DNA from: Variovorax sp. RA8
Lineage (GTDB): Bacteria; Pseudomonadota; Gammaproteobacteria; Burkholderiales; Burkholderiaceae_C
DNA: 64,000 nt
Direction: 5' to 3'
Assembly (NCBI RefSeq): GCF_901827175.1
Contig: NZ_LR594662.1
Coordinates: 1,426,001-1,490,000, forward strand
A program made the position numbers and the translations under genes. Each line of letters begins with the position of its first letter. The stretch's first letter is position 1. A model generated the notes under the pieces. That model did no database searches and was not told the origin of the DNA. It saw only the letters and a program-made list of their open reading frames with translations. Below, in pieces: positions 32,848-61,762 of the stretch.

Positions 32848-33113
32848 GCAGGGACTGGATCGTCAATGTGGATCGCGCCCTGGTTTCGCTCGAATTCCTC
32901 GCCATAGCGGCGACGCTCCCAGGCATTGAACGCAATGATCATGATGTCGCGATGCCCGCCCTCATCGCTCGCCGGCAGAATATGGGATGCGTTGTGCCAC
33001 ATCTTGTCGTCGGCCATGATGATGGCTTCGTTCTCGCCCAGAATGTCCTCGAAGAAGCAGGGGCCTCCGCCCGTAGGCATGAGCTGGCTCACACCCCCGG
33101 TGATGTTGTGCCG
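32844..33113 (-). pseudogene. 2-oxoglutarate/Fe(II) dioxygenase, C-terminal remnant
   Basis: Only the last 90 or so codons of a 2OG-Fe(II) oxygenase of the amino-acid hydroxylase type (like L-isoleucine 4-hydroxylase) remain. The reading frame is recognisable from RHNITGGVSQLMPTGGGP, through KMWHNASHILPASDEGGHRD with the distal iron histidine and the 2OG-binding arginine, to AFNAWERRR. The N-terminal two-thirds, including the HxD motif, are missing, and no start codon of its own is evident (a GTG at 33092 is in frame). Upstream it runs directly into the aminotransferase fragment in another frame. Its stop still overlaps the MFS start. Confidence 0.75.
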
Positions 33114-33598
33114 CGCGAAAACGCTCCGGAAGTCATGCCATGGTAGGCGCCGTGGAATGCGATGACACTTTGCCGGCCCGTCGCGATTCTGAAAAGCTTC
33201 AGCGCTGCCGCCACGGCATCTGAGCCGGTGGGTCCGCAGAACTGGATTCGTGCGTCTTCCGAGAAGGCGGCGGGCAGGGTCTGGAACAGCTGGTCGACGA
33301 AGCTCAGCTTCGCTGGTGTGGCGATGTCCAGTCCTTGCAGAATGTGCCCCGAACTCAGAAACGAATGCACCCTGTCCATCACTTCAGGATGGTTGTGGCC
33401 CAGTGGGAGCGCACCGGCGCAGGCGAGCAGATCGATGTATGCCCGGCCTTCGATGTCCCAAACCCTGGACAACGAGCCGCGGGCGATCATGCAGTCGAAG
33501 GTACGTGCGTATGTTCTTGCGCTGGACTCTTTCCGTGCAATGAATTGGATCGCCTCTTCATGCTCGGCAGTGGTCGCCAGCATCTCTGTCTTGTTCAT
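33089..33598 (-). pseudogene. Class III aminotransferase (diaminobutyrate type), N-terminal fragment
   Basis: 169 codons, about a third of a normal class III aminotransferase (about 430-460). The N-terminus fits the 2,4-diaminobutyrate/EctB group: SARTYARTFDCMIARGSLSR, YIDLLACAGALPLGHNHPEV, HILQGLDIATPAKLSFVDQL and CGPTGSDAVAAALKL, ending at AFHGAYHGMTSGAFS. The PLP lysine region and everything after it are absent. After GAFS the frame reads a few random residues and stops, because the sequence has been joined to the dioxygenase remnant. It was the first gene of the operon; a 16-base palindrome lies 66 bases upstream. Confidence 0.82.
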
Positions 33599-33721: not shown

Positions 33722-34936
33722 TCACAACACCATCTCGATGACGGTGAAGTCGTCCTCGAGCGCACCGGGCCCGTGCATCTCCCGTGCGAAATCCAGCAGC
33801 GTGTCGAGCTCGGACTGTCCATCACGCACCGGCCGCGCGAGCACGTCGGTGAAGTCGGAGAACGTGAGCATGGACCCGTCCGGCCGCGTGATCTCGTAGG
33901 TCCCGTCGCTGAACACGAACAGCCGCGCCGGCGACCGCAGGATGCACTGTTCGTCGCCATAGAGCGCGGCCGGCGAGAGGCCGATGCAGGGACCGCTTGC
34001 CTTCAGCGGCCGGCATTCACCGGGAGCCTCGCGCGTGCCGGGCACCAGCATCGCCGGTGGGTGGCCGGCCGAGGCGTAGCGCAGCCGGCCGGTGCCGCGG
34101 TGATAGACGCCGTACCAGACGGTGCAGAACAGCTCGTTGTGGCGTTCCATCTGGTAGGCGAGGTTGAGCGCGGCGAGCACCTCCGCGGGCCGGCGGAAGT
34201 TGGTCCGCGGCAGGGCCTCCGAGCGCAGCGTGTCGGCGACCGCCACCGACAGCAGGGCGGCGCCCACGCCGTGGCCGCAGACGTCGATCAGGTACAGCGC
34301 GAAGTGATTGGCGTCGATCCAGTGGTAGCCGAAGGAATCGCCACCCAGCTCGGTGGAGGGCACGAAGCGCCAGTCGACCGTCATCGGCTCGGACAGCGGT
34401 GCCGGCAGGATGGCGAGGACGTAGCGCTCGGCGTCGCGCAGTTCCTGCTGCAGCCGGTCGTGGGCGCGTTGCAGGGCTTCGCGCGACGCGGCGAGCTCGC
34501 GATGGGCACGGGTGAGTTCCTGGTTGGTTGCCTCGAGCTGCTCGATCAGCCTGGCTTCGCGCTGGCTGAGCAGGGTCATGTCGTAGGCCTTCTGCTGGAC
34601 CCGCTGCGCTTCCTCGTGTTCCGTCGTCACATCGAGCAGAACGATCCAGACCGTGGCGTCATCCGCGAAGAAGTGGACGTCGGCCACCCGGCCGCTGGGC
34701 ATTTCCATGGAACGAAGGAGAAAGGGGTTCTCCGCCAGCGGCAGCAGGCCTTCGAGGAAGGGGATCTGGTCGCAGGCGGAATCGCCGGGCTGGATACCGG
34801 CCAGGCCGTAGTGCGCCAGCTCGCCCCCGGCATGCACCAGCTTCTGCGCCTCATCGACGGCCAGGTGCGCAAGCACGCGCTGCCCATGGACCAGCACCAT
34901 GAGCGAGTCGGAAATCCGCTCCGGCAGGTCCAGCAT
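33722..34936 (-). CDS. PAS/coiled-coil SpoIIE-type (RsbU-like) serine phosphatase
   Basis: 404 residues from ATG 34936. Residues 1-105 form a PAS-like sensor (SLMVLVHGQRVLAHLAVDEA to VHFFADDATVWIVLLDVT). A coiled coil follows at about 110-165 (REARLIEQLEATNQELTRAH), then the PP2C-like SpoIIE domain. The metal and catalytic motifs are complete: STELGGDSFGYHWID, LYLIDVCGHGVGAALLS, RYASAGHPPAML, LFVFSDGTYEI and EDDFTVIEMV. RsbU/SpoIIE phosphatases remove the phosphate from the STAS antagonist. It is the last gene of the six-gene operon, whose first genes encode exactly that antagonist and its kinase. Confidence 0.92.
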   Translation of the reverse strand: MLDLPERISDSLMVLVHGQRVLAHLAVDEAQKLVHAGGELAHYGLAGIQPGDSACDQIPFLEGLLPLAENPFLLRSMEMPSGRVADVHFFADDATVWIVLLDVTTEHEEAQRVQQKAYDMTLLSQREARLIEQLEATNQELTRAHRELAASREALQRAHDRLQQELRDAERYVLAILPAPLSEPMTVDWRFVPSTELGGDSFGYHWIDANHFALYLIDVCGHGVGAALLSVAVADTLRSEALPRTNFRRPAEVLAALNLAYQMERHNELFCTVWYGVYHRGTGRLRYASAGHPPAMLVPGTREAPGECRPLKASGPCIGLSPAALYGDEQCILRSPARLFVFSDGTYEITRPDGSMLTFSDFTDVLARPVRDGQSELDTLLDFAREMHGPGALEDDFTVIEMVL

Positions 34937-34955
34937 GGCCAAGGCCTGACAGGCT

Positions 34956-35450
34956 CTAGCGCGCCAGGAGCGCCGCCAGGTCCTGGAAGCTCGCCTCGAC
35001 CCCGTCGCCGGTCTTGGCGCTGGTGCGGCGGAAGGTCCACCCCGCGGCCTGCAGGGTCTCGATCCGTTCCGGCGGCAGCGCCCAGTCCTGCACGAGGTCC
35101 GCCTTGTTGAGCAGGGCGAGGAAGGGAATGCGGCCGACCTCCGCGTTGACGCGTGACTGGATCGAAGCCGCGGTCTCCAGGGTTTCGGGCCGCGTGCCGT
35201 CCACCACCAGCAGATAGCCGGCCGCGCCGCGCAGGTAGCTCAGCCGCACCGCCGCCATGTCGTCCTCGCCGGCGATGTCCCAGAGGATCAGTGCGAGGGG
35301 CTCGGTGCCGAGGGTCATCACCTTCTTGTCGATCTTCACGCCGACCGTGGTGAGGTAGGCGTCGGAGAAGATGGTGTCGACAAAGCGGCGTACCAGGCTC
35401 GTCTTTCCGACGCCGAATGCACCGAGCAGGCAGATCTTTTTTTGCAGCAT
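34956..35450 (-). CDS. Ras-like small GTPase
   Basis: 164 residues, a stand-alone small GTPase with all five G motifs: G1 GAFGVGKT (10-17), G2 around Thr34/Thr35 in YLTTVGVKI, G3 WDIAGED (57-63), G4 NKAD (115-118) and G5 TSAK (143-146). The residue matching Ras Gln61 is Glu62, so intrinsic GTP hydrolysis may be slow and need a partner. No lipidation motif or membrane helix is seen. It starts 11 bases after the OmpA-domain gene and stops 19 before the phosphatase. Small bacterial GTPases of this kind (MglA, and Rab-like proteins) usually switch protein positioning or signalling; here the likely targets are the flanking membrane and phosphatase proteins. Confidence 0.92.
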   Translation of the reverse strand: MLQKKICLLGAFGVGKTSLVRRFVDTIFSDAYLTTVGVKIDKKVMTLGTEPLALILWDIAGEDDMAAVRLSYLRGAAGYLLVVDGTRPETLETAASIQSRVNAEVGRIPFLALLNKADLVQDWALPPERIETLQAAGWTFRRTSAKTGDGVEASFQDLAALLAR

Positions 35451-35461
35451 GGGGAGATGTC

Positions 35462-37324
35462 CTAGTCGCTGGTCCCGACCACGAAGGACACGCGCCGGTT
35501 CATCGACAACTCGTCGGCGCTGGCGCCGGGCCGAAGCGGCTCCAGCGGGCCCGCGCCGCGCACGGAGAGCAGGTTGGGGTCGATGCCCCGCGCCCGCAGC
35601 ATGGAGCGCACGACCTCGGCGCGCCCGAGGCTGAGCGCCAGGTTGGCCGTGTCCTTGCCGGTGGCATCGGCGTGGCCGACGATCGTCACGCGCACCGAGA
35701 AGCCGAGGCCACGGGCCACGCGCACCAGCTCGCGCAGTTCGGCCGCCACGGTGTCGAGCTCGATGCCCTGCTCGGCCGTGGGCCGCGGGGCGTTGTTCTC
35801 GAAGGGGATGACGTGGGCCTGGATGGCGTCGCGCAGGCGGATGTAGTTCGGGTCCTGCACGTCCTTGAGGGCGCTCAGGTCCACCGGCGGAGCGCCCGCG
35901 GGCAGGCTCTGCACGAAGGCCCGCGCCTTGTCCATCCAGTGCTGCGGGGCACTGCCGTCGGCGCGAATGCCGCCCGCGTCCTGCGACAGGCTCACGGTCG
36001 GGGGCGGATTCAGGGTCGCCTGCAGGCGCTTCAGCATGATGGCCGGATGGAGCGCCTGGTAGGGTTCCCAGCGTCCGACGATGAGCGCCGGGTCCAGCTT
36101 CGCGGGTTCCAGCAGGGCTTCCGGCGGCATGGCCAGCGGGTCGCGCAGTCCGGACACCCACCACTTGCCGTCATGGCGATCGGCGCCCATCACGACGATG
36201 CCGGGTTGGTCGCGCAGCGCCGCGACGTAGTCGTCGACGCGCTGGCTCTCGATCACCCGCTGCCCGATCCACCAGCCCAGTGCCAGGAGCAGTGCCAGGG
36301 GAATGACCCAGAGCAGCGGCGACAGCCTTTTCTTCGACTCGGCCGACTGGGACCACAGGGTGGGCCGCAGCCGCTGCTGTGCACCCTCTTCGAAGGGGGT
36401 GGTATCGCCTTCGAATTCATCGAGTTCGGTGCGCCATTGGTCGTGGATGGCGGCCAGCGTCTCCACCAGGCATTCACGCAGTGCCGGGGGCGGGTTGCCG
36501 TGGATCACCGCGGCGAGGAAGGCCGATGGTCCTTCCTCGCACCACAGCAGCAGGTCGCCCAGGCGCAGGCTGTCGATGCTGCGGCCCTTGGCGCCGCCCT
36601 CGGCGGATTCGTCGAAGGAATCGCGCACGAAGTCCTGGATCGCCGAGAGCATGGCAGACACGAGCTGGGGGTCGCGTGTCGTCGCGTCTTCCGCCGCCTC
36701 GTGCGCCAGCAGCAGGCCGGTCTTGCGATGGACCAGGAACAGGTGCTCGACGCGGAACACGGCGGTGTGCCTGAGCACCACGTCGGCAAAGGCGCTGCCG
36801 CTTCGCCAGGCTTCGAGGCGCCACTTGAGGCCACGCCACGAGAGGCTGTGCTTGAGCGCCTGGTTGAGCGACTGCAGCTTGCCTTCCAGGGTCTCGGCGA
36901 TGGCCTTGCGGATCGCCGGCCCCATGACGGGGTACAGGATGTCGACCATGGTGTCCGGATTTTTCCGGATCGACGCCTGGGTGGCGCGTTCGACGGTGGG
37001 GGCGAGCACCTGGCCGAGGCGCGCGTCCTGCGCCGCCAGCTCGAAGGCGGCGGGCAGCACGGCGCCCACCGCATCGGCGAACTCCTGCGGATCGTCGAAC
37101 TTGCGTTGCAGCCTCGCCAGCGCTGCCTGCTCGCGTTCGAGCAGCACGTCGCGCAGCGCCTCCAGGCGCGGGTCGACCGCCGGGCGGGGAGGCAGCGTCG
37201 CGACCACCGTCGGGTCGACGCATCGCGCCAGCTCCAGCAACAGCCCGGCCAGCCGCTGGTTCGGACTTTCTTCGGAAGCACCGCCGGGCGCGCTGGTCGC
37301 GGCCAGCGGCAGGCGCGCTGTCAC
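35462..37324 (-). CDS. Inner-membrane OmpA/MotB-domain protein with large cytoplasmic part
   Basis: 620 residues. There is no signal peptide; a single membrane helix at about 337-354 (LLWVIPLALLLALGWWIG) leaves residues 1-335 in the cytoplasm and 355-620 in the periplasm. The periplasmic end is an OmpA-like peptidoglycan-binding domain (about 490-615) with TIVGHADATGKDTANLALS and NRRVSFVVG. In the cytoplasmic part, residues about 188-300 (RVEHLFLVHRKTGLLLAHEA, then a helix, then DLLLWCEEGPSAFLAAVIHG) have the strand-helix order of a longin/roadblock-type fold, which in other systems binds small GTPases; this is inference. It is flanked by the coiled-coil and GTPase genes. Confidence 0.85.
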   Translation of the reverse strand: MTARLPLAATSAPGGASEESPNQRLAGLLLELARCVDPTVVATLPPRPAVDPRLEALRDVLLEREQAALARLQRKFDDPQEFADAVGAVLPAAFELAAQDARLGQVLAPTVERATQASIRKNPDTMVDILYPVMGPAIRKAIAETLEGKLQSLNQALKHSLSWRGLKWRLEAWRSGSAFADVVLRHTAVFRVEHLFLVHRKTGLLLAHEAAEDATTRDPQLVSAMLSAIQDFVRDSFDESAEGGAKGRSIDSLRLGDLLLWCEEGPSAFLAAVIHGNPPPALRECLVETLAAIHDQWRTELDEFEGDTTPFEEGAQQRLRPTLWSQSAESKKRLSPLLWVIPLALLLALGWWIGQRVIESQRVDDYVAALRDQPGIVVMGADRHDGKWWVSGLRDPLAMPPEALLEPAKLDPALIVGRWEPYQALHPAIMLKRLQATLNPPPTVSLSQDAGGIRADGSAPQHWMDKARAFVQSLPAGAPPVDLSALKDVQDPNYIRLRDAIQAHVIPFENNAPRPTAEQGIELDTVAAELRELVRVARGLGFSVRVTIVGHADATGKDTANLALSLGRAEVVRSMLRARGIDPNLLSVRGAGPLEPLRPGASADELSMNRRVSFVVGTSD

Positions 37325-37373
37325 GTGGCCTCCTCGGCCCCAGGCTCCCGCTGCGGCCGCGCACGGCGCCCTG

Positions 37374-37430
37374 GCGCACCTTCGCCCTCGGCTGCGGTGC
37401 CATTCGCCCTCGGAGCGGCCGCGCGGCTCA
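37374..37430. repeat. 60 bp dispersed repeat, copy 2
   Basis: About 57 bases matching the units at 18862 and 43233 (CACCTTCGCC, GGCTGCGGTGCCATTCGCC, CGGAGCGGCC and GCGGCTCA in the same order). On the minus strand it begins at the TGA of the coiled-coil gene (37428-37430). It separates this gene from the OmpA-domain gene inside the operon. Confidence 0.8.
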
Positions 37431-38051
37431 AACGCGCTCGCCGTTGCCGCCCTTCGGCGACGTGTCCTGGTTCAGGCATTTGGCAATCTCGACGAACAGC
37501 CCCGCGAGCAGGTTGCGGTCGGTCTTGACGTTGCTGAGCTCGGAGAACATCCGCTCGATGGTGGCGCGGGTGTCTTCCTGGCGCTTGCGCATGTCGTCGC
37601 GCAGGCCCTGGACCTCATGGCCGAGGCTGTCGGTGAACTCGCGCCCCTGGCGCGCGAGCTGGTCGGACAGCTGGGCAAGACGCTTTTCCAGCGCCTGCGT
37701 CTGCTCCCGCAGGTTGCGCTCCAGCTCCTTGTCGGCGTCGGCGCGCAGGTCCTTTTCCTCGCGGAACTGGCCCGCGACCGATTCGAGCTGCTTCTTGATC
37801 GTCCCCTCGAGGTTGGTCAGGCTTCGGGACGACTCCGCCTCGAGGTCGCGCAGCCTGTGCTGGAAACGATCCTCGAGGACCGAGAAGCGCTTGTCGTAGT
37901 CCTGCATCTGGTTGCCGAACAGCAACTCGCGCATCTTGTCGACCCCCGAGGCCTCGCCCTGCCCGTTGGGCTGGGTGGCGAGGGCCGCCTGCGCGGCCAG
38001 TGCGCTCTGGGCGTCGATGGTGGGGAGGGGGGATTTGGCTGCGGTTCCCAT
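37428..38051 (-). CDS. Cytoplasmic coiled-coil protein of the partner-switch operon
   Basis: 207 residues, no signal or membrane segment. Residues about 40-185 form a long, charged heptad coiled coil (for example RFSVLEDRFQHRLRDLEAE and LREQTQALEKRLAQLSDQLA). A short conserved-looking N-terminal segment KMRELLFGNQMQDYDKRF and a C-terminal helical cap NLLAGLFVEIAKCL flank it. I do not recognise a named family. The position between the RsbW-like kinase and the OmpA-domain protein suggests a scaffold or a link between the signalling module and the envelope protein. Confidence 0.8.
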   Translation of the reverse strand: MGTAAKSPLPTIDAQSALAAQAALATQPNGQGEASGVDKMRELLFGNQMQDYDKRFSVLEDRFQHRLRDLEAESSRSLTNLEGTIKKQLESVAGQFREEKDLRADADKELERNLREQTQALEKRLAQLSDQLARQGREFTDSLGHEVQGLRDDMRKRQEDTRATIERMFSELSNVKTDRNLLAGLFVEIAKCLNQDTSPKGGNGERV

Positions 38052-38137
38052 GGCTTGTTTCCTCGTAGTGGTTGCTATGTGAAGAGTGGGGCCGTGGGGG
38101 CGGCGCCCGCGGGATGGTGGATGTCGGGGTGCCTCGG

Positions 38138-38581
38138 TCAGGGCGGCGCCGTCGGCCGGAAGAGGAGCGTCAGGTGATTGCGGCCGTCTTCGCGGCGGTA
38201 GTGCATGCCGTCGGAGAACCGGCGAACGATGGGGATGCCCCAGCCACCGACGTGCGCGTCATCGAGGCTGCTCGCGCGCCCCGGTTCCGGGGGCTGCAGC
38301 GGGTCGAAGGGGCGGCCCTCGTCCTCGACTTCCAGGGCCACGTCCTCGCCTTGCCACCGAAGCCGCAGGAAGATGCTGCAATGCGCCGCCTCGTCGCCGC
38401 TGCCGTGGGTCATGATGTTGGTCACCGCCTCGGTCGAGCACAGGTCGAGCTGCTGCGCGACCCGGCTCGGAAGCCGCTGGCGCTGCGCCCAGTCCTGCAC
38501 CCACGCGCTCACGCGCGAGAGCTCGCGCAACTCGGAACCGACGATCAGGGAGGCCTGGGACTCCCTGTCGCTGGAGGACAT
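38138..38581 (-). CDS. RsbW-like anti-sigma-factor kinase (GHKL ATPase)
   Basis: 147 residues, a minimal GHKL ATP-binding domain. The N-box is DLCSTEAVTNIMTHG with Glu51 and Asn55, the G1 box is VEDEGRPFDPL with Asp87 and Gly89, and the G2 region is GGWGIPIVRRFSD. RsbW/SpoIIAB-type proteins phosphorylate a STAS antagonist on serine and hold a partner, often a sigma factor, when the antagonist is phosphorylated. It is seven bases downstream of the STAS gene. No sigma-factor gene is next to it, so the third partner is unknown and could be encoded in this operon. Confidence 0.9.
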   Translation of the reverse strand: MSSSDRESQASLIVGSELRELSRVSAWVQDWAQRQRLPSRVAQQLDLCSTEAVTNIMTHGSGDEAAHCSIFLRLRWQGEDVALEVEDEGRPFDPLQPPEPGRASSLDDAHVGGWGIPIVRRFSDGMHYRREDGRNHLTLLFRPTAPP

Positions 38582-38588
38582 CAGGGCC

Positions 38589-38939
38589 TCACTCGGCTCC
38601 CGCCTTCAGCGCGCTGAAGGCGGTGTCGACATCGGGGTACAGGGGAATGATCGTGTCGACCCCTGCAACCTTGAGCACATCCGCCACCAGCGGCGGGGGG
38701 CCGGCCAAGGCCATCTCGCCGCCGCGCTGCTTCTGGGCTCTCGCGTTGGTGATCAGGGCCCGAATGCCGATGGACGCCAGGAACGACACCTCGGACATGT
38801 CGACCACGGCGAGGAGTTTCCGGGTCGCGACGAGCGCTGCGAAGCGCATGTCGATCTCTTGTGTGCCGGCGCTGTCCAGGCGCCCGATCAGGCTGATTTT
38901 CTCGATGCCCTCAGCCAGTTGCTCCGTCCTTAGCTCCAT
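38589..38939 (-). CDS. STAS-domain anti-sigma-factor antagonist
   Basis: 116 residues, a single STAS domain. The start at 38939 is supported by a strong GGAGG just upstream (in CGGAGGTGGC on the minus strand). The core reads ISLIGRLDSAGTQEID, then LLAVVDMSEVSFLASIGIRA, where Ser56 occupies the position phosphorylated in SpoIIAA/RsbV. The C-terminal part MALAGPPPLVADVLKVAG is typical. It is the first gene of the operon. When dephosphorylated by the SpoIIE-type phosphatase (last gene), it should bind the RsbW-like kinase and free the kinase's partner. Confidence 0.92.
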   Translation of the reverse strand: MELRTEQLAEGIEKISLIGRLDSAGTQEIDMRFAALVATRKLLAVVDMSEVSFLASIGIRALITNARAQKQRGGEMALAGPPPLVADVLKVAGVDTIIPLYPDVDTAFSALKAGAE

Positions 38940-42686: not shown

Positions 42687-43247
42687 TCAGGAAGCCTTGC
42701 GCAGTCGCACGCGGAACCTGATCGTCACGTCGGGGCCGATGACGTCCGTCGCCGCCCACTCGCCGGTGCCGATGCCGAAGGGCAGCCGCTTGACGGTGAA
42801 CTCGCCCTGCATGCTCGCCGTGTCCGCCGCGCCGTTCCAGGTGAAGGGCACCTCGATGGCTTGCTGCACCCCCTTCAGCCTCAGCGTGCCGCGGGCGAGA
42901 TAGCTGTTGGCCTGCGCGCGGCGGATTTCGGTGGCGCGGAACTCGGCCTGCGGATGGCGGGCGAAGTCGAACCACTCGGGGCCGGCGATGGCCTTGTTGA
43001 TGTCCGCATTCGCCATGTCGGCGCTCGCGACGCCGATGCGGACCTCGAGGCGGCCATCGGCGGGGCGCTCGGGGTCGAAGTCCAGCCGCACCTCGAAGTC
43101 CTTGAACACACCCGGTGCCGGCGTCTTCTCGAAGGTCGCGGCGAAATCGAGCCGGCTCGCGGCCGGATCCATCTTCCATTCGGCGGCAAAGGCGGGCGGC
43201 AGCGCGGCGCAGGCGAGCAGCAGGGCGAGGCAGGCCGTGCGGCTCAT
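42687..43247 (-). CDS. YceI-family periplasmic protein, with a repeat-derived alternative N-terminus
   Basis: 186 residues from ATG 43247, where a clean signal peptide starts (TACLALLLACAALPPAFA, cleaved before AEW). The YceI barrel follows: WKMDPAASRLDFAATFEKTP, FDFERP-like, ANMADINKAIAGPEWFDFAR, and the terminal DVTIRFRVRLRK. Upstream, three 60-base repeat units are in frame and each adds 20 residues starting with an ATG, so a 246-residue form from 43427 is also possible. That first ATG overlaps the cytochrome b561 stop (ATGA). GAAGG seven bases before 43247 lies in the repeat and is a good ribosome site for the short form. The long form would bury the signal peptide. Confidence 0.85.
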   Translation of the reverse strand: MSRTACLALLLACAALPPAFAAEWKMDPAASRLDFAATFEKTPAPGVFKDFEVRLDFDPERPADGRLEVRIGVASADMANADINKAIAGPEWFDFARHPQAEFRATEIRRAQANSYLARGTLRLKGVQQAIEVPFTWNGAADTASMQGEFTVKRLPFGIGTGEWAATDVIGPDVTIRFRVRLRKAS

Positions 43248-43427
43248 CGGAGTACCTTCGCCTGCGGCTGCGGTGCCATGAGCCTTCGGAGCGGCCGTGC
43301 GGCTCATCGGAGTACCTTCGCCTGCGGCTGCGGTGCCATGAGCCTTCGGAGCGGCCGTGCGGCTCATCGGAGTACCTTCGCCTGCGGCTGCGGTGCCATG
43401 AGCCTTCGGAGCGGCCGTGCGGCTCAT
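43233..43427. repeat. 60 bp dispersed repeat, copy 3 (tandem, 3.25 units)
   Basis: 195 bases with an exact 60-base period; the units are identical. Each contains GCGGCTCAT, GGAGTACCTTCGCC, GGCTGCGGTGCCATGAGCC and TTCGGAGCGGCCGT. On the minus strand the array begins at the TGA stop of the cytochrome b561 gene and ends at the start codon of the YceI gene. Each unit carries GAAGG-N7-ATG. Confidence 0.95.
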
Positions 43428-48517: not shown

Positions 48518-51500
48518 TCAGGGCTTGGCCCACAAGGCCGCACCGGGGAAATGGGCGAAGGCGGCCGCCATCCGGATCACGCCGCCATGCACCACGAGGG
48601 TCTCGCCGGTGAGCACGTTCTCGAAGCGCGTGCCCTCGGGCACCTCCGGCAGGCGCACTGTCGTGTCCTCCCACACTTCGCCGAGCGGCGGTTCGCTGAT
48701 GGCAGCGAGCGAGCTGAACAGGCGTGCCGCGATCAGCACCAGCACCCGATCCTCATGCCGGCGCATGAAGGCCACCACGTGCGCGGCCTTCGCCCCGTCG
48801 ACCTGTAGTCCCCGGTAATCGCCTTCGCGGAACAGCGCGGGCTGCTCGCGGCGCAGCGACAGCATGCGCCAGGCAACCCAGAGCTTGGCGCGTCCATCGC
48901 CGGCGGCAGCAGACACCAGCGCGGCGACGTGGGCCGGCAGGTCGCCGGCCCGGACCATCGCCTCGAGCTCGTCCAGGCAGCGCACGCGCAGTGCGTAGTC
49001 CACCGGGCGCCGGTTGTCCGGATCGACCAGGCTCAGGTCCATCAGCTCGTTGCCCTGGTACACGTCCGGCACGCCGGGCGAACCGAACTTCAGCAGCGTG
49101 AGCGAGAGGCTGTTGAGCGCCCCGAACCAGGCCAGCGTGCGGGCCAGCGTCTGCAGGTCGTCGACGAAGCGCGGGTCGGCCTCGCGACTCAGCACTGCGC
49201 GCACGAAGCCTTCCAGCGCCTGCTCGTAGGCCTCGTCGGGGTTCGTCCATCGGGTGTGGAGCTTCGCCTCGCGCGCCGCCTTCTGCATGTAGCCCACGAT
49301 GCGCTCGGTGTAGGGCTCGCGGGTGCTGTCGTCCAGGCCGCCGGCGGGCAGGGTGCCGAGCAAGGTCTGGTAGAGCAGGTATTCGTCCGTGGACGAAGGA
49401 GCACCGGAGGGCGCACCACCGGCTTCCAGCTTCCGGCGGATCCCGCGCGTCAGCGCGCGCCAGCGCCGCAGCGCCAGGCGCCAGGTCCCCGGCATCTCCG
49501 ACAGCACGTCGATGCGGCAGCGCACGTCCTCGGAGCGCTTGTTGTCGTGGGTGGAACTGGCCAGCATGGTGTGCGGCCAGTGCCGCGCGCGGTCGGCGCT
49601 GGCTTCGTGGAACTGGTCCACCGTCATGCCGAAATGCGCCGGCTCGCCGCCCACCTCGTTGAGCGCGCTCAGCGGAAAGTAGCGGTAGAAAGCCGTGTCC
49701 TCCACGCCCTTCGCCGTGACCGGCGCGCTGAACTGCTGGAAGCGGATCGCCAGGTGCAGCACGCGCCGCTGCAACGCTTCTTCGGCGCCGGGCACGGCGC
49801 GCCCGAGCAGGGTCTGCTGCACGAAGTCGTAGATCGAGACGTCCGCCTCCCGGCTGCCGCGCCGTGCCTCGCGCGCGGCCCAGGAGATGAAGCGCTCGTC
49901 CTGCTGCGAGGGCGCCTCGATGATGTAGGTGCGGTAGACCGGCAGGCAGGCCGCGATTTCGCCCAGCGCGCGCTGCAGCGCATTGAAGGTGTAGTCGCGC
50001 GTGCGCCGGTCGGCGCGCGCGATGCGCAGCAGCTCGGTGGACAGCACCGCCAGCTCCGAGGCCAGCGCGCTGCGCATGATGTCGCGCTTGCCGGCGCGCG
50101 CCAGGGCCTGGAAGCTGTCGCGCACGCCGGTGAAGTTGCGCCAGATCTTCTCGAACTTCTCTGCCGCAGCGGTGTCGATGAGCACCCCGTTCGCGACGTT
50201 GGCGAAGCGATAGCCGGTGGTGCCGTGCACGTGCCAGTCCTCGGGCACTTCCTCGTCCTCGGCCTTGATCTTCTCCGCCACCACGTAGAGCGGCCGCGCC
50301 GGCCGCCCCTCGGCATCGCGCTCGGCCAGCACCAGGCCGGCGCGGCGGGCATAGCCTTCCTGCAGCTGCCGGAAATAGCGCGCGGGGTCGTAGAGGCCAT
50401 CCGGGTGGTCGATGCGAAGCCCGTCGACCTGGCCGGAGGCGGCGAGGTCGAGTGCGAAGGATTGGGTCGCTTCGAACACCTCCTCGCGCTCCATGCGCAG
50501 CCCGGCCAGCGAGTTGATGTCGAAGAAGCGCCGGTAGTTGATGTCGTCCGCCGCCACGCGCCAGTAGGCGAGCCGCCAGGCCTGGACCTCGATCAGCGCG
50601 TGCAGCTCGTCGCGCGCGCTCGGCAGGTTGAGCTCGGCCGCGCGCGCGGTGATGGCGCGCACAACGGCCGGCTGGCGGGCCGCCAGCTGGGCCAGCTGGG
50701 TCTTGAGCAGCTCCTTGTCGCGTGCCCGCTCGGCGCGCGCCGGGTCGTCGCTCGCGTCGTGGCCCAGCAGCCGGCCGAAGGCGGAGGAGATGCCCGCCAG
50801 CTGAGCCGCGAGCGCCGCCTCGTCGAGCTGCGCGGCGGCGCCGCCGAGCACCCGCGGATAGCTCTCGGGGGCCAACGGAAAGCGGTGCTCGAAGTAGTAC
50901 ACCGCCAGGCTGCCGCTGCCTTCCTCGAAGCGCAGCACCAGGTCGCCGCTCATCAGCACGTCGCCGTAGTGGTCGCCCAGCACCGGCACCAGCACCTTGC
51001 CCGCGAGCTCGGGATTGAGCGGCTGCCAGTCGATGTCGAAGTGCTGGGCGTAGAGCGAGGCGGGGCCGTTCTCCAGCACGTCCATCCACCACGCATTGTC
51101 GGCCCCCATCACGCCCATGTGGTTGGGCACCAGGTCCACCAGTTGGCCCATGCCGTGTACGCGCAGCGCGGCGACGAAGCGCTCGAAGCCTGCGCGCCCG
51201 CCGAGCTCGGGGTTGACCTGGTCGTGCGCCACCACGTCGTAGCCGTGCATGCTGCCGGCGCGGGCGCGCTGGATCGGCGAGCAGTACACATGGCTGATGC
51301 CCAGGCGGGCGAGGTAGGGCAGCACGCGGATCGCGTCGTCGAAGCGGAAGCCCTTGTGGAACTGGAGCCGGTAGGTGGCGCGCGGGATGCGCGCCTGCAT
51401 CGAGCCGCGCTGCGAGGCGTCGGCTACGCGCGCCTGCGGGCGCAGCCGGGCCAGCGTGCGGCCGAGCGCATCCAGCGCCTCGCTCGCGGCCAGGGCATGC

Positions 51501-53639
51501 AGGTCGGCCGGCAGCTTGCGCTGCCAGTTGGGCTGCTCGTGGGTCGTGCCGGGCATGTTGGCCTGCTCGACCACGCCGAGCACGTCTTCGAGCTGGACCA
51601 TCATGAGCAAGGCAGGCGCCTCGGCCAGGAAGGCGTGCACGGCCTCGACCGTGCGCGGCGCGAGCCGAGACTCGCTGCTGGCCTGCGCGATCTCCTCGGC
51701 ACTCAGAAGGCCGGCATGCCGCACCGCCAGCAGCAGCTGCACGCGCTGGCGTGCGCGATCGAGCAGCTGCTGCTCGAGCTGCGCCTCGTCGGGAATCAGG
51801 CCGAGCTGCAGGCGCAGGCGCAGGTCCTCCCCGCACCACCAGCCGGCCAGCGTGGGCAGGTCGTGCGTGCCCACCGCGGCCAGAGCCTGCGCGGGGTAGG
51901 CGGCGGCCGGCTTGAAGGCGCCGTCCGCCTCGCGCTCGAAGAAGAGCAGCCGGTAGGACAGGATGTCGAAGCGCGCGAGCGCCTCGCGCATCTCGGGCTG
52001 GACGGTGCCGAGGTCTTCGCCGATCACCAGGCAGCGGTGGCGCTGGCTTTCGAGCGCGACGATGGCCAGCATCTCGTCCAGCGGGTAGCGCACATAGCCG
52101 CCCTCGCGCGCGGTGCCGCCAGCGGGAATCCAGAACAGGCGCATGAGGCCCATCACATGGTCGATGCGCAGGGCGCCGGCGTGGCGCATGTTGGCGCGCA
52201 GGGTGTCGATGAAGAAGCGGTAGCCCTCGGCGCGCAGGCGATCGGGCCGCAGCGGCGGCAGGCCCCAGCCCTGGCCGGAGGGGTTGAACTCGTCCGGCGG
52301 CGCGCCCACGCTCGCCTCGGCGGCGAACAGGGCGCCTTCGCTCCAGACATCCGAGCCGCCGCGGTCGCTCGACACCGCGAGGTCGAGGTACAGGCCGATG
52401 CCCAGGCCGAGCGCCTTGCAGTGCGCGTTGGCGCGCGCCAGCTGGCCCGCGGCCAGCCACTGCAGGTACTGGTGGAACTGCACGCGCTGCGCGTGCTGCC
52501 GCGCGAAGGCCTCCACCGCGGGACTCTCCGGGTCGCGATAGTCCTCGGGCCAGAGCGGCCAGCCCCAGACCGCCGCATCGGCCGCGTGGAAGTGCGCCTG
52601 CAGCGCTTCGAACAGCGCATGCCGCCGCAATGACTCGCCGCCTTCGGCAACGAAGGCCAGGAAGGCGAAGCCCGTGTCGTCCTGCGCGTCGCGGCCGTCC
52701 TGCGTCAGGCGGCAGGCGCGGAAGTGCGCGAACAGCAGCTCGAGCACCTCGAACTTCGCCTGCGCGACACCGGCGTAGTCCACCAGCGGCAGCTCGCGCA
52801 GCGCCGCGAGCCGGGTCTGGAATTCGAGCGAGCCCACCAGCCGGCGCGCGGCTTCGCAATGGGCGAAGTCGGGCACTGCCTCGACATCGATGCAGAGCAC
52901 GTTGAGCCAGCGCCGCGAGGACGGACTGTACGGGCTCGCATGCGCCGGGTTGTGCGGAAAGAGCGCGTGCAGCGGATTGAGTCCCACGATGTCGGCGCCG
53001 CGCGGCGCCATCTGCGTGATGAGCTGCGCGAGGTCGGTGAAGTCGCCGATGCCCCAGTTGCGGCGCGAGCGCAGCGCATACAGCTGCAGCGCCGGGCCCC
53101 AGACCCGACCGCCGTCGCGCAGCGCGGCCGGGCGCCAGCAGCGCTCGGGCGCGCTGATGAGGAGGGTCTCGCCCTCCAGCCCTTCGATGCGCAGGCGGTG
53201 GTAGCCCATCGGCAGGCCGCGGGCGAACGGGACCTGGCGCTCGCACCAGCGCGTGCCGTCGATCTCGACGGCGGCCGTCTCCGGCAGTGCGGCGGTGTCG
53301 ATCTCGCCCTGCTGCTTCCCGCCGTCTTCCTCCCACAGCTGCCAGCGCAGGCGCCCCATCGACGCCGGCATGCGCAGGGGCAGTGCCCAATCGGCGCTGG
53401 ACGCGCGGATCACCCGCACCGGCGGCAGGCCGCACGACCAACTCGCGCGACGCTCGGCTTCCAGCAGCGCGCCGGCTTGCGCGCCGTCGTGCAGCCGCAC
53501 GCCGAACTCGGCCAGGAGCGCGAGCAGGGTCTCGCGCGGCACCGGCTGGTGCGCGCCCCAGATGTCGTGGTAGTCGAGTGCGATGCCGAAGTGGGCGCAG
53601 AGCAGGGCGATCGCTTCCGATGCACCGTCGTGCGCCGCT

Positions 53640-53647
<8 letters not shown>
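48518..53647 (-). CDS. treY: MalQ-TreY fusion: 4-alpha-glucanotransferase and maltooligosyltrehalose synthase
   Basis: 1,709 residues from a TTG start at 53647, in one uninterrupted frame. Residues 1-749 are a MalQ amylomaltase: RNWGIGDFTDLAQLI, ALRIDHVMGLMRLFWIP with the nucleophile Asp, CLVIGEDLGTVQPEM with the acid/base Glu, and VGTHDLPTLAGWW. Residues 750-1709, starting MQARIPRATYRLQFHKGF, are a full TreY (GH13_26): VDLVPNHMGVMG, GQVDGLRIDHPDGLYDP, VAEKIKAEDEEVPEDW and SSTHDNKRSEDVR. TreY isomerises the reducing-end glucose of maltodextrin into trehalose linkage; MalQ shuffles glucan lengths and would supply chains. The start overlaps the treZ stop by eight bases. No ATG start is available near the beginning. 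Confidence 0.93.
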
Positions 53648-57672
<4,025 letters not shown>

Positions 57673-57676
<4 letters not shown>

Positions 57677-58383
57677 CGGCGAAATTTGCGCTCTTCGAGT
57701 CGTTCTGCGGGGTCTTTGCTCTCGCGTGGCCACCATTGTTCGATGCGTTCGGCTGCCCAGTCCTTGCCGCCCAGGCCGAATGCCAGGGCCAGCGCGAAGA
57801 CCACCCCGGCCAGGATGACCAGGAAGCTCTCGCGCACGATGTCGCCGCCGACCTTGATCTGGTCGAGCGCGATGAGCACCACGAAGACCAGGATCGCGTA
57901 CTGCGCCAGCTTGCCGAGGAAGACGGCGTCCTGCAGCTTGACGTTGCGGCAGTAGGCAGTCACCGTGTCTCCGACGAAGCGCGCGAAGTACGAGCCGAAG
58001 GCCAGCACCAGCACCGCGACGAAGACATTGGGGACGAACCACATCACCTTGCCGATCAGGTCGCTGATGTAGGTAAGCCCCAGGCCGTTGAACGCAATCA
58101 GCAGCGAGGCGAGGATCACCAGCCAGTACACCAGCACGCCGAACACGCTGGTGGTGTCGCCGCGCATGCCGCCCTGGCGCAGGAAGCCGTCGAGGCCGGC
58201 GCGCTCGGTGAGCACGTTGAAGTTGATGGCGTGCAAGGCCTTCACCACGGTGAAGCGCGCCAGCTTGGCGAGGAGCCAGCCGGCGACCACGACCACCACC
58301 GCGATGAGCAGGCGCGGCAGGAAGGCGCCGATCTGGAACAGGATGGCCCGCAAGGGCTCCAGGTGGATTCCGAAGCTTTCCAT
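57673..58383 (-). CDS. Membrane protein with conserved TM-helix (mechanosensitive-channel-related) repeats
   Basis: 236 residues with four or five membrane helices. Three related segments (LLIAVVVVVAGWLLAKLARF; FVPNVFVAVLVLAFGSYFAR; FLVILAGVVFALALAFGLGG) are repeats of the conserved TM-helix unit found in some MscS-like proteins. The last one ends in a glycine-rich GLGGKDWA like the pore-lining helix start. No MscS beta-domain follows, so channel activity is not assured. It sits inside the trehalose/glucan operon, overlapping glgX by four bases and 43 after treS. A link between turgor sensing and trehalose metabolism is a natural guess. Confidence 0.82.
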
Positions 58384-58426
58384 GATGCTTTTCTCCGTTG
58401 ACCCGTGCGTGCTCGGCGGGCGTTCG

Positions 58427-61762
<3,336 letters not shown>

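Follow-up and report, generated by a model that had tools for sequence, protein, structure and literature searches.

We analysed a 64,000-nucleotide stretch of the Variovorax sp. RA8 genome (contig NZ_LR594662.1, positions 1,426,001 to 1,490,000; hereafter the window, in whose coordinates all positions are given), in which six minus-strand genes occupy positions 33722-38939. The run is probably a Group 1 Rup cassette, built around a Ras-like GTPase, whose effector is a SpoIIE phosphatase and which encodes the kinase and STAS substrate of that phosphatase in the same operon. On comparative grounds the partner switch of phosphatase, kinase and STAS protein is most likely an exchangeable output of the GTPase cassette, with a putative coiled-coil protein, an OmpA-domain protein and the GTPase as the fixed part and not as the third partner of the switch. 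Rup cassettes joined to other signalling enzymes were already known from computer surveys; in this case the partner is a SpoIIE phosphatase with its own kinase and STAS protein. Among the entries listed by searches of the open-access literature (subscription journals are mostly absent from it), judged by title and abstract, there were only the small-GTPase survey of Wuichet and Sogaard-Andersen (2014; PMC4316618) on the cassette, nothing linking it to a partner switch and no later experimental study of Rup.

Outputs of Rup cassettes

Among 398 sampled genomes of the phylum, 50 had matches to the GTPase, and 36 stretches from 34 of them were read; a scan of named genomes contributed 80 further loci, the best 80 of at least 447. 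Together with 10 Variovorax stretches these made 126 loci, 121 of them with distinct GTPases (L086 proved to be an unrelated long protein). An OmpA-type protein lay within 6.5 kb of the GTPase at 113 of the 121 distinct loci, and a coiled-coil protein as well at 98. Pfam assigned 12 effectors to Guanylate_cyc (5), GGDEF with EAL (3), HisKA/HATPase with or without REC (3) and HD-GYP (1), and recognised SpoIIE effectors in the window and at loci L105, L127 and L157; the remaining effectors were classed by phmmer against those named by Pfam.

Most effectors carried one of two N-terminal domain types, A and B, for which we built profiles (the match between the two is weak: E 7e-4, probability 26%). 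At the 121 distinct loci the commonest sets were type A with cyclase (40), type A with SpoIIE (18) and type A alone with a type B histidine kinase (15). There followed type B with HD-GYP (6), with histidine kinase (5) and with GGDEF/EAL (4), type A with histidine kinase (3), type A cyclase with type B histidine kinase (3), type A with HD-GYP (2) and nine single cases. The type A domain is common to four output types (cyclase, SpoIIE, histidine kinase and HD-GYP) and also stands alone. The cassette is found, then, with adenylate cyclase, HD-GYP and SpoIIE phosphatase besides the typical outputs of the 2014 survey, a range that suggests an exchangeable output part.

STAS and kinase genes were present at all 18 distinct loci with a type A-SpoIIE effector versus none of the 85 loci with other effectors (within 6.5 kb; phmmer at 1e-4 with the window's proteins as the only queries), and it is this contrast that argues for the partner switch as the output of the GTPase cassette. 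At 71 of the 85 loci the coiled-coil and OmpA proteins both lay within 6.5 kb of the GTPase. Seventeen of the 18 type A-SpoIIE loci belong to Variovorax; the other, L105, comes from an uncultured Rhodopila, with Pfam matches to SpoIIE (5e-38), HATPase_c_2 (1.1e-17) and STAS (6.5e-15).

Acquisition of a SpoIIE domain by the cassette apparently happened on two or more occasions, and in each case STAS and kinase genes are found close by. On a tree of 93 type A domains (140 columns) the SpoIIE label needs two changes, and the starred branches force two; a pair of gains is the simplest account. L105 groups there with two cyclases: its type A domain is identical to that of the L102 cyclase at 85 of 135 positions (63%) and to that of the window at 59 of 127 (46%), and between L105 and the window 62 of 202 residues of the SpoIIE domain are identical (31%). 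Phosphatases found in the class to which G198 belongs, in a match that starts past the N-terminal domain and comes from a different alignment method, reached 43% over L105 residues 151-402. Kinase genes in nine sampled loci of other genomes had an adjacent STAS gene in eight cases and SpoIIE too in four (L203, L204, L206 and L207), and the stretches of about 3.4 kb lacked a Rup gene (sigma genes were not looked for there). Thus ready-made sets were available at loci without a Rup gene.

Among the best 120 of 924 protein-database relatives of the L105 N-terminal domain, a hand count gave 58 with SpoIIE (L105 itself included), 59 with cyclase and three with no domain. These relatives show, without gene context, that type A-SpoIIE proteins occur elsewhere. 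Samples of 385 and 355 genomes, whose loci were left out of the count of 121, yielded no further type A-SpoIIE fusion beyond our own genome; type A occurred there with cyclase, histidine kinase and HD-GYP.

Several observations weigh against the reading of the partner switch as a cassette output. With 17 of 18 loci in Variovorax, the link between SpoIIE, STAS and kinase rests on two lineages, and at L105 the STAS and kinase genes are on the opposite strand, about 1.2 kb past the phosphatase gene, and therefore not in one operon with it. Neither STAS nor kinase was recognised near the type B SpoIIE effectors of L127 and L157 (the latter a 5.1-kb contig). The search of the 85 other loci relied on the window's own STAS and kinase sequences, and 58 of those loci have 5 kb on both sides. 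At 16 of the 121 loci no effector of these types was recognised; the downstream gene examined at one of them, L083, encodes a radical SAM protein. Many forks in the tree are unresolved at 140 columns, and losses could in principle take the place of the second gain. The cassette is missing from 26 of the 37 sampled Variovorax genomes, and single-protein Pfam scans, a PDB profile search and profile comparison found no relation between the cytoplasmic domain of the OmpA protein and known GTPase regulators.

Three further architectures were observed elsewhere. At L108, L110, L114 and other cyanobacterial loci, type A alone (about 130 residues) lies beside a type B histidine kinase as a split effector; L132 and L169 have types A and B in tandem in a single HD-GYP effector; and L106:8001-9133 holds a tandem pair of Rup GTPase genes within one cassette.

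Organisation and conservation of the operon

The six open reading frames form one run, are all real and intact, and agree with their Pfam matches in the gene order first predicted. The run begins with the STAS protein (116 aa, 38589-38939; PF01740 1.4e-14, 107 of 116 residues scanned) and an RsbW/SpoIIAB-like HATPase_c_2 kinase (147 aa, 38138-38581; PF13581 8.5e-25). These precede the putative cytoplasmic coiled-coil protein (207 aa, 37428-38051), which has relatives at Rup loci, and the OmpA-domain protein (620 aa, 35462-37324; PF00691 8.1e-10 at residues 529-609). The Group 1 Rup-type Ras-like GTPase (164 aa, 34956-35450; PF00071 7.8e-26, 157 of 164 residues scanned) and the SpoIIE phosphatase effector (33722-34942; PF07228 8.6e-38) complete it. 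The GTPase starts at ATG 35450, which makes it shorter than the open reading frame listed. The phosphatase starts at TTG 34942 or ATG 34936, more likely the latter because many relatives are 404 residues long. From STAS to phosphatase the intergenic gaps measure 7, 86, 103, 11 and 13 bases, in agreement with the spacing first described.

All six genes were found in identical order at 10 of 10 fetched Variovorax loci, with 64-100% identity over matched stretches, which exceeds what chance would give, and the predicted single conserved unit was borne out. The order was also kept at 12 Variovorax loci of a second set; the two sets overlap and hold 17 distinct GTPases in total. Over 19 Variovorax loci, correlations between the six proteins' pairwise distances run from 0.61 to 0.88 (no control gene alongside), as expected for a unit inherited together. 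When 61 related genomes were screened, the GTPase was present in 11 of 37 Variovorax genomes, our own counted, and in none of 24 others (two extra rows at 5.5e-4 were taken as unrelated). In a sample of 200 family genomes it appeared in our own genome only. Four flanking genes that we tested were common to L015 alone among the 10 loci.

A gene for a hybrid histidine kinase adjoins the STAS gene at 14 of 17 distinct Variovorax loci, divergently at three. The distance between them is 47-224 bases in 16 of 18 rows and 969 and 1606 bases in the other two. At L016:419-4723 the protein has five GAF stretches, HisKA, HATPase and two receivers. We ruled it out as a fixed part of the cassette since it is missing from the window's own clade (L014, L015/L090 and L091); it is at most an accessory, possibly an extra input.

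Identity of the GTPase cassette

The original prediction knew of no named system with these genes. Four of the six, however, make up the Group 1 Rup neighbourhood of the 2014 survey (PMC4316618), and because the fit extends to everything except the type of output, we regard the operon not as an unnamed system but as a Rup cassette with an unusual output. In the passages of the survey that bear on it, Group 1 Rup is defined by a GTPase without the G3 glutamine and by three conserved neighbours: a coiled-coil protein, a protein with an unknown domain, a transmembrane helix and an OmpA domain, and an output protein. The output, typically GGDEF/EAL or a histidine kinase, has an invariant N-terminal glutamine, which those passages connect with the glutamine lacking in the GTPase and propose as the missing residue of a GTPase-activating protein (GAP); they also state that no Rup protein had been characterised at that time. 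Beta-proteobacteria are not in the list of section 16 of the survey (PMC4316618).

The window's GTPase is a single-domain Ras-superfamily protein with motifs G1-G5, and a profile comparison ranks Rab-23 and Rab-6 highest among solved chains. Its G1, G4 and G5 residues are intact and invariant in an alignment of 20. The residue after DxxG in G3, usually the catalytic glutamine, is Glu62 (codon 35265-35267), and a glutamine stands there in 0 of 20 aligned sequences and, by pattern match, in 0 of 120 readable among 121 distinct relatives. The earlier statement that all catalytic motifs are intact does not, in its usual meaning, apply to the GTPase; the lack of this glutamine is characteristic of Group 1 Rup. 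The neighbours agree with Group 1 Rup as well: the putative cytoplasmic coiled-coil protein at 37428-38051, the protein with an unknown domain, a transmembrane helix and an OmpA domain, and an effector whose N-terminal region carries an invariant glutamine. There is no coupling to the roadblock protein MglB, and the sole PF03259 match in our genome (G000) lies about 640 kb from the cassette.

Thus the operon shares with the surveyed systems all four of these components, and differs in having SpoIIE, STAS and kinase genes in place of GGDEF/EAL or histidine kinase outputs, which the survey calls typical and does not make defining. Actinobacterial conservons (CvnA-D) and MglA/MglB likewise couple a small GTPase to a signalling output; unlike them, the window's cassette has no roadblock (MglB) protein alongside.

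Pfam, hydropathy and an alignment of 78 sequences divide the OmpA-domain protein into a conserved N-terminal cytoplasmic domain (about residues 1-330), a hydrophobic segment (336-358) and the C-terminal OmpA domain (529-609). The hydrophobic segment recurs in 97 of 108 relatives over 500 aa. The membrane-anchored signalling link proposed at the outset is supported. The coiled-coil protein had no hydrophobic segment by hydropathy, and none of 25 listed Pfam families reached the cut-off in it. A roadblock/longin fold for the cytoplasmic domain of the OmpA protein was considered and rejected: its strand and helix order resembles roadblock by eye, but comparison of profiles gave no significant match (score 20.5 and E 0.048 for the first alignment, where eight shuffles reached up to 17.4; score 15.1 and E 0.069 for the trimmed one, where 60 shuffles reached up to 18.0).

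The effector and its invariant glutamine

The effector consists, with borders drawn by eye, of a Rup-effector domain (residues 1 to about 125), a helical linker (about 110-190) and a SpoIIE/PPM phosphatase domain (211-402); residues 143-352 align with RssB (3eq2, 3.4e-13). A hydropathy scan also marks residues 218-236 within the SpoIIE domain, which we took as its buried core. The N-terminal domain had been labelled PAS, a label that we dropped as not supported by Pfam matches. The domain matched no Pfam family, and PAS was absent among the 25 listed of 29 Pfam families for 66 aligned effector N-terminal domains. HNOBA matched weakly in six of the 66 (best 0.0017), in L055 over the linker.

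Glutamine 117 (Q117; codon 34592-34594, minus strand, counted from TTG 34942 and equal to Q115 from ATG 34936) lies at the junction of the N-terminal domain and the linker. All 93 type A domains (89 different rows) retain it, 45 of them joined to cyclase, 24 to SpoIIE (the window included), three to histidine kinase and two to HD-GYP, with 18 stand-alone and one unclassified; G40 and L124 are likewise invariant in type A. Type B domains, which GGDEF-EAL effectors carry, show a glutamine within a comparable motif in 43 of 45 cases, and among 16 aligned effectors of both types the glutamine is the sole invariant column, in an alignment that is uncertain for type B. We infer that Q117 is the invariant glutamine of the 2014 survey.

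Q117 may serve either the GTPase, as proposed in 2014, or the linker. In RsbU, as described in part of a recent study (PMC12143880), RsbT activates the phosphatase by making the linker form a coiled coil, whereupon the phosphatase dimerises, and a linker change of Q94 to leucine is activating. The presence of Q117 in stand-alone type A domains, 16 of 18 of which end 11-19 residues past it, leans towards the GTPase role. The same part of that study (PMC12143880) proposes that sensor domains are exchangeable among phosphatases, histidine kinases and diguanylate cyclases, a toolkit in which helical linkers let common sensor domains steer phosphatases, histidine kinases and GGDEF proteins, as we see here. 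It differs in that the Rup-effector domain and a small GTPase are not met in that part of the study, and our loci add adenylate cyclase and HD-GYP outputs.

The partner switch and its target

The partner-switch triad is complete, as predicted: phosphatase, STAS protein and kinase are all present with conserved residues in the 24 rows compared for each, which include L105. Ser56 of the STAS protein (codon 38772-38774, motif FLASIGIR) does not vary across the 24 rows (20 different) and is presumably the phospho-acceptor, equivalent to SpoIIAA Ser58 and RsbV Ser56. Kinase residues E51, N55, D87, G89 and G112-G113-W114-G115, which we take to be those of the ATP-site motifs, are invariant in 24 of 24 rows (again 20 different), as are D202, D220, D346 and D397 of the phosphatase (24 of 24 rows), in our assumption the metal-binding aspartates. 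The operon therefore resembles the RsbU-RsbV-RsbW and SpoIIE-SpoIIAA-SpoIIAB switches in its PPM phosphatase with its aspartates, its HATPase_c_2 kinase with an intact ATP site, its STAS protein with the conserved serine and its RsbU-like helical linker. It differs in that the Rup-effector domain replaces other input domains and no cognate sigma factor appears at the locus among the matches listed.

A sigma factor was sought as a neighbour and rejected: in 11 Variovorax genomes none of the sigma70_r2 matches listed fell inside the stretches read, in keeping with the original prediction, and in our genome (G000) the nearest of those listed is about 319 kb from the operon. A partner switch that lacks a sigma factor has a precedent: in part of one account (PMC7647112), the diguanylate cyclase SiaD is the proposed target of SiaABC in Pseudomonas.

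Two targets encoded elsewhere can be entertained. The chain could end on transcription, with the kinase holding an unlinked sigma factor or other regulator in the manner of an anti-sigma factor. The 11 Variovorax genomes have 13-20 sigma70_r2 matches each, among those listed, and the STAS protein and kinase belong to families that serve in sigma control; with none of these matches at the locus, and with the four tested flanking genes common to L015 only among the 10 loci, we treat this as a credible possibility short of a probable one. Alternatively, and on a similarly tentative footing, the STAS protein itself could be the output, its dephosphorylated form binding and controlling an enzyme encoded elsewhere. 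SiaC and SiaD provide the precedent (in part of PMC7647112), since SiaABCD of Pseudomonas aeruginosa also combines phosphatase, kinase and STAS-like protein with a proposed output that is not a sigma factor; the kinase-STAS pairs at eight of the nine loci of other genomes also favour it. Against it, the six genes include no diguanylate cyclase, their input is a GTPase module, unlike that of SiaABCD, and the window's protein fell short of the SiaA model cut-off (28.7 of 700 bits).

It is unlikely that the STAS protein and kinase are instead an input tuning the GTPase cassette, in the way that RsbT, which as a partner protein switches on a phosphatase (in part of PMC12143880), acts on RsbU. They do head the run, but they were found with type A SpoIIE output only and all 24 rows retain the STAS phospho-site, a better fit to the substrate and antagonist of a phosphatase. 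That the kinase's third partner is the coiled-coil protein, the OmpA protein or the GTPase, as first suggested, with the switch acting on the envelope module itself, is highly improbable: the six genes do remain together as a single run in Variovorax, and none of the listed sigma factors lies close to them, but 71 of the 85 other-effector loci hold all three proteins, with no recognised STAS or kinase within 6.5 kb at any of the 85.

A model of the pathway

For the Rup cassette with a partner-switch output, we infer the direction of signalling and every binding step as follows. The OmpA domain would hold the membrane protein to peptidoglycan, and a change in the envelope would alter its cytoplasmic domain and so shift the GTP/GDP state of Rup. 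Rup may then act on the effector's N-terminal domain, with Q117 at the start of the linker, and alter how the phosphatase dimerises and how active it is; RsbU has been shown to use such a linker mechanism (in part of PMC12143880). Judging from the functions of their families, the kinase would phosphorylate Ser56 of the STAS protein and the phosphatase would remove the phosphate. Free STAS protein could then draw the kinase off an unlinked target, or act on one itself.

More broadly, Group 1 Rup cassettes may be a general envelope-tethered GTPase front end, in which the effector's N-terminal domain is the direct partner of Rup and supplies the catalytic glutamine, Q117, in trans, so that one GTPase cycle drives swapped outputs. 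We put this forward as a plausible proposal, if not yet a probable one. If true, domain exchange would place adenylate cyclases, diguanylate cyclases, HD-GYP proteins, histidine kinases or a partner switch under one GTPase cycle, and a Ras-like GTPase would directly command an RsbU-type phosphatase. The case would illustrate how a bacterial Ras-like GTPase can be fitted with different outputs by the swap of one catalytic domain. In the partner-switch variant, the release of phosphate from phospho-STAS provides a clean assay in which GTPase, nucleotide and Q117 can each be varied, and which would reveal whether the effector is under Rup control, in what sense, and whether the glutamine corresponds to the GAP residue of the 2014 proposal.

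Other features of the window

The predicted 60-bp direct repeat was confirmed as a diverged copy at 37357-37431 (no strand; 76% to the reference), which sits in the 103-base gap before the OmpA gene and overlaps the final 4 bases of the coiled-coil gene. Tandem copies of the unit lie at 43233-43427, and an exact 30-mer from the operon copy occurs once in the genome. With one diverged copy in the operon and no role found, we rejected the repeat as a signal.

Beyond the phosphatase gene, a diaminobutyrate aminotransferase-like gene at 33089-33598 encodes 169 residues only. It looks truncated, because the gap to the next gene extends about 1.6 kb beyond the matched part in L015 and less than 0.3 kb here. 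Trehalose/alpha-glucan genes occupy 48518-61762 and include treS with a maltokinase part, treZ and a malQ-treY fusion of 1709 residues.

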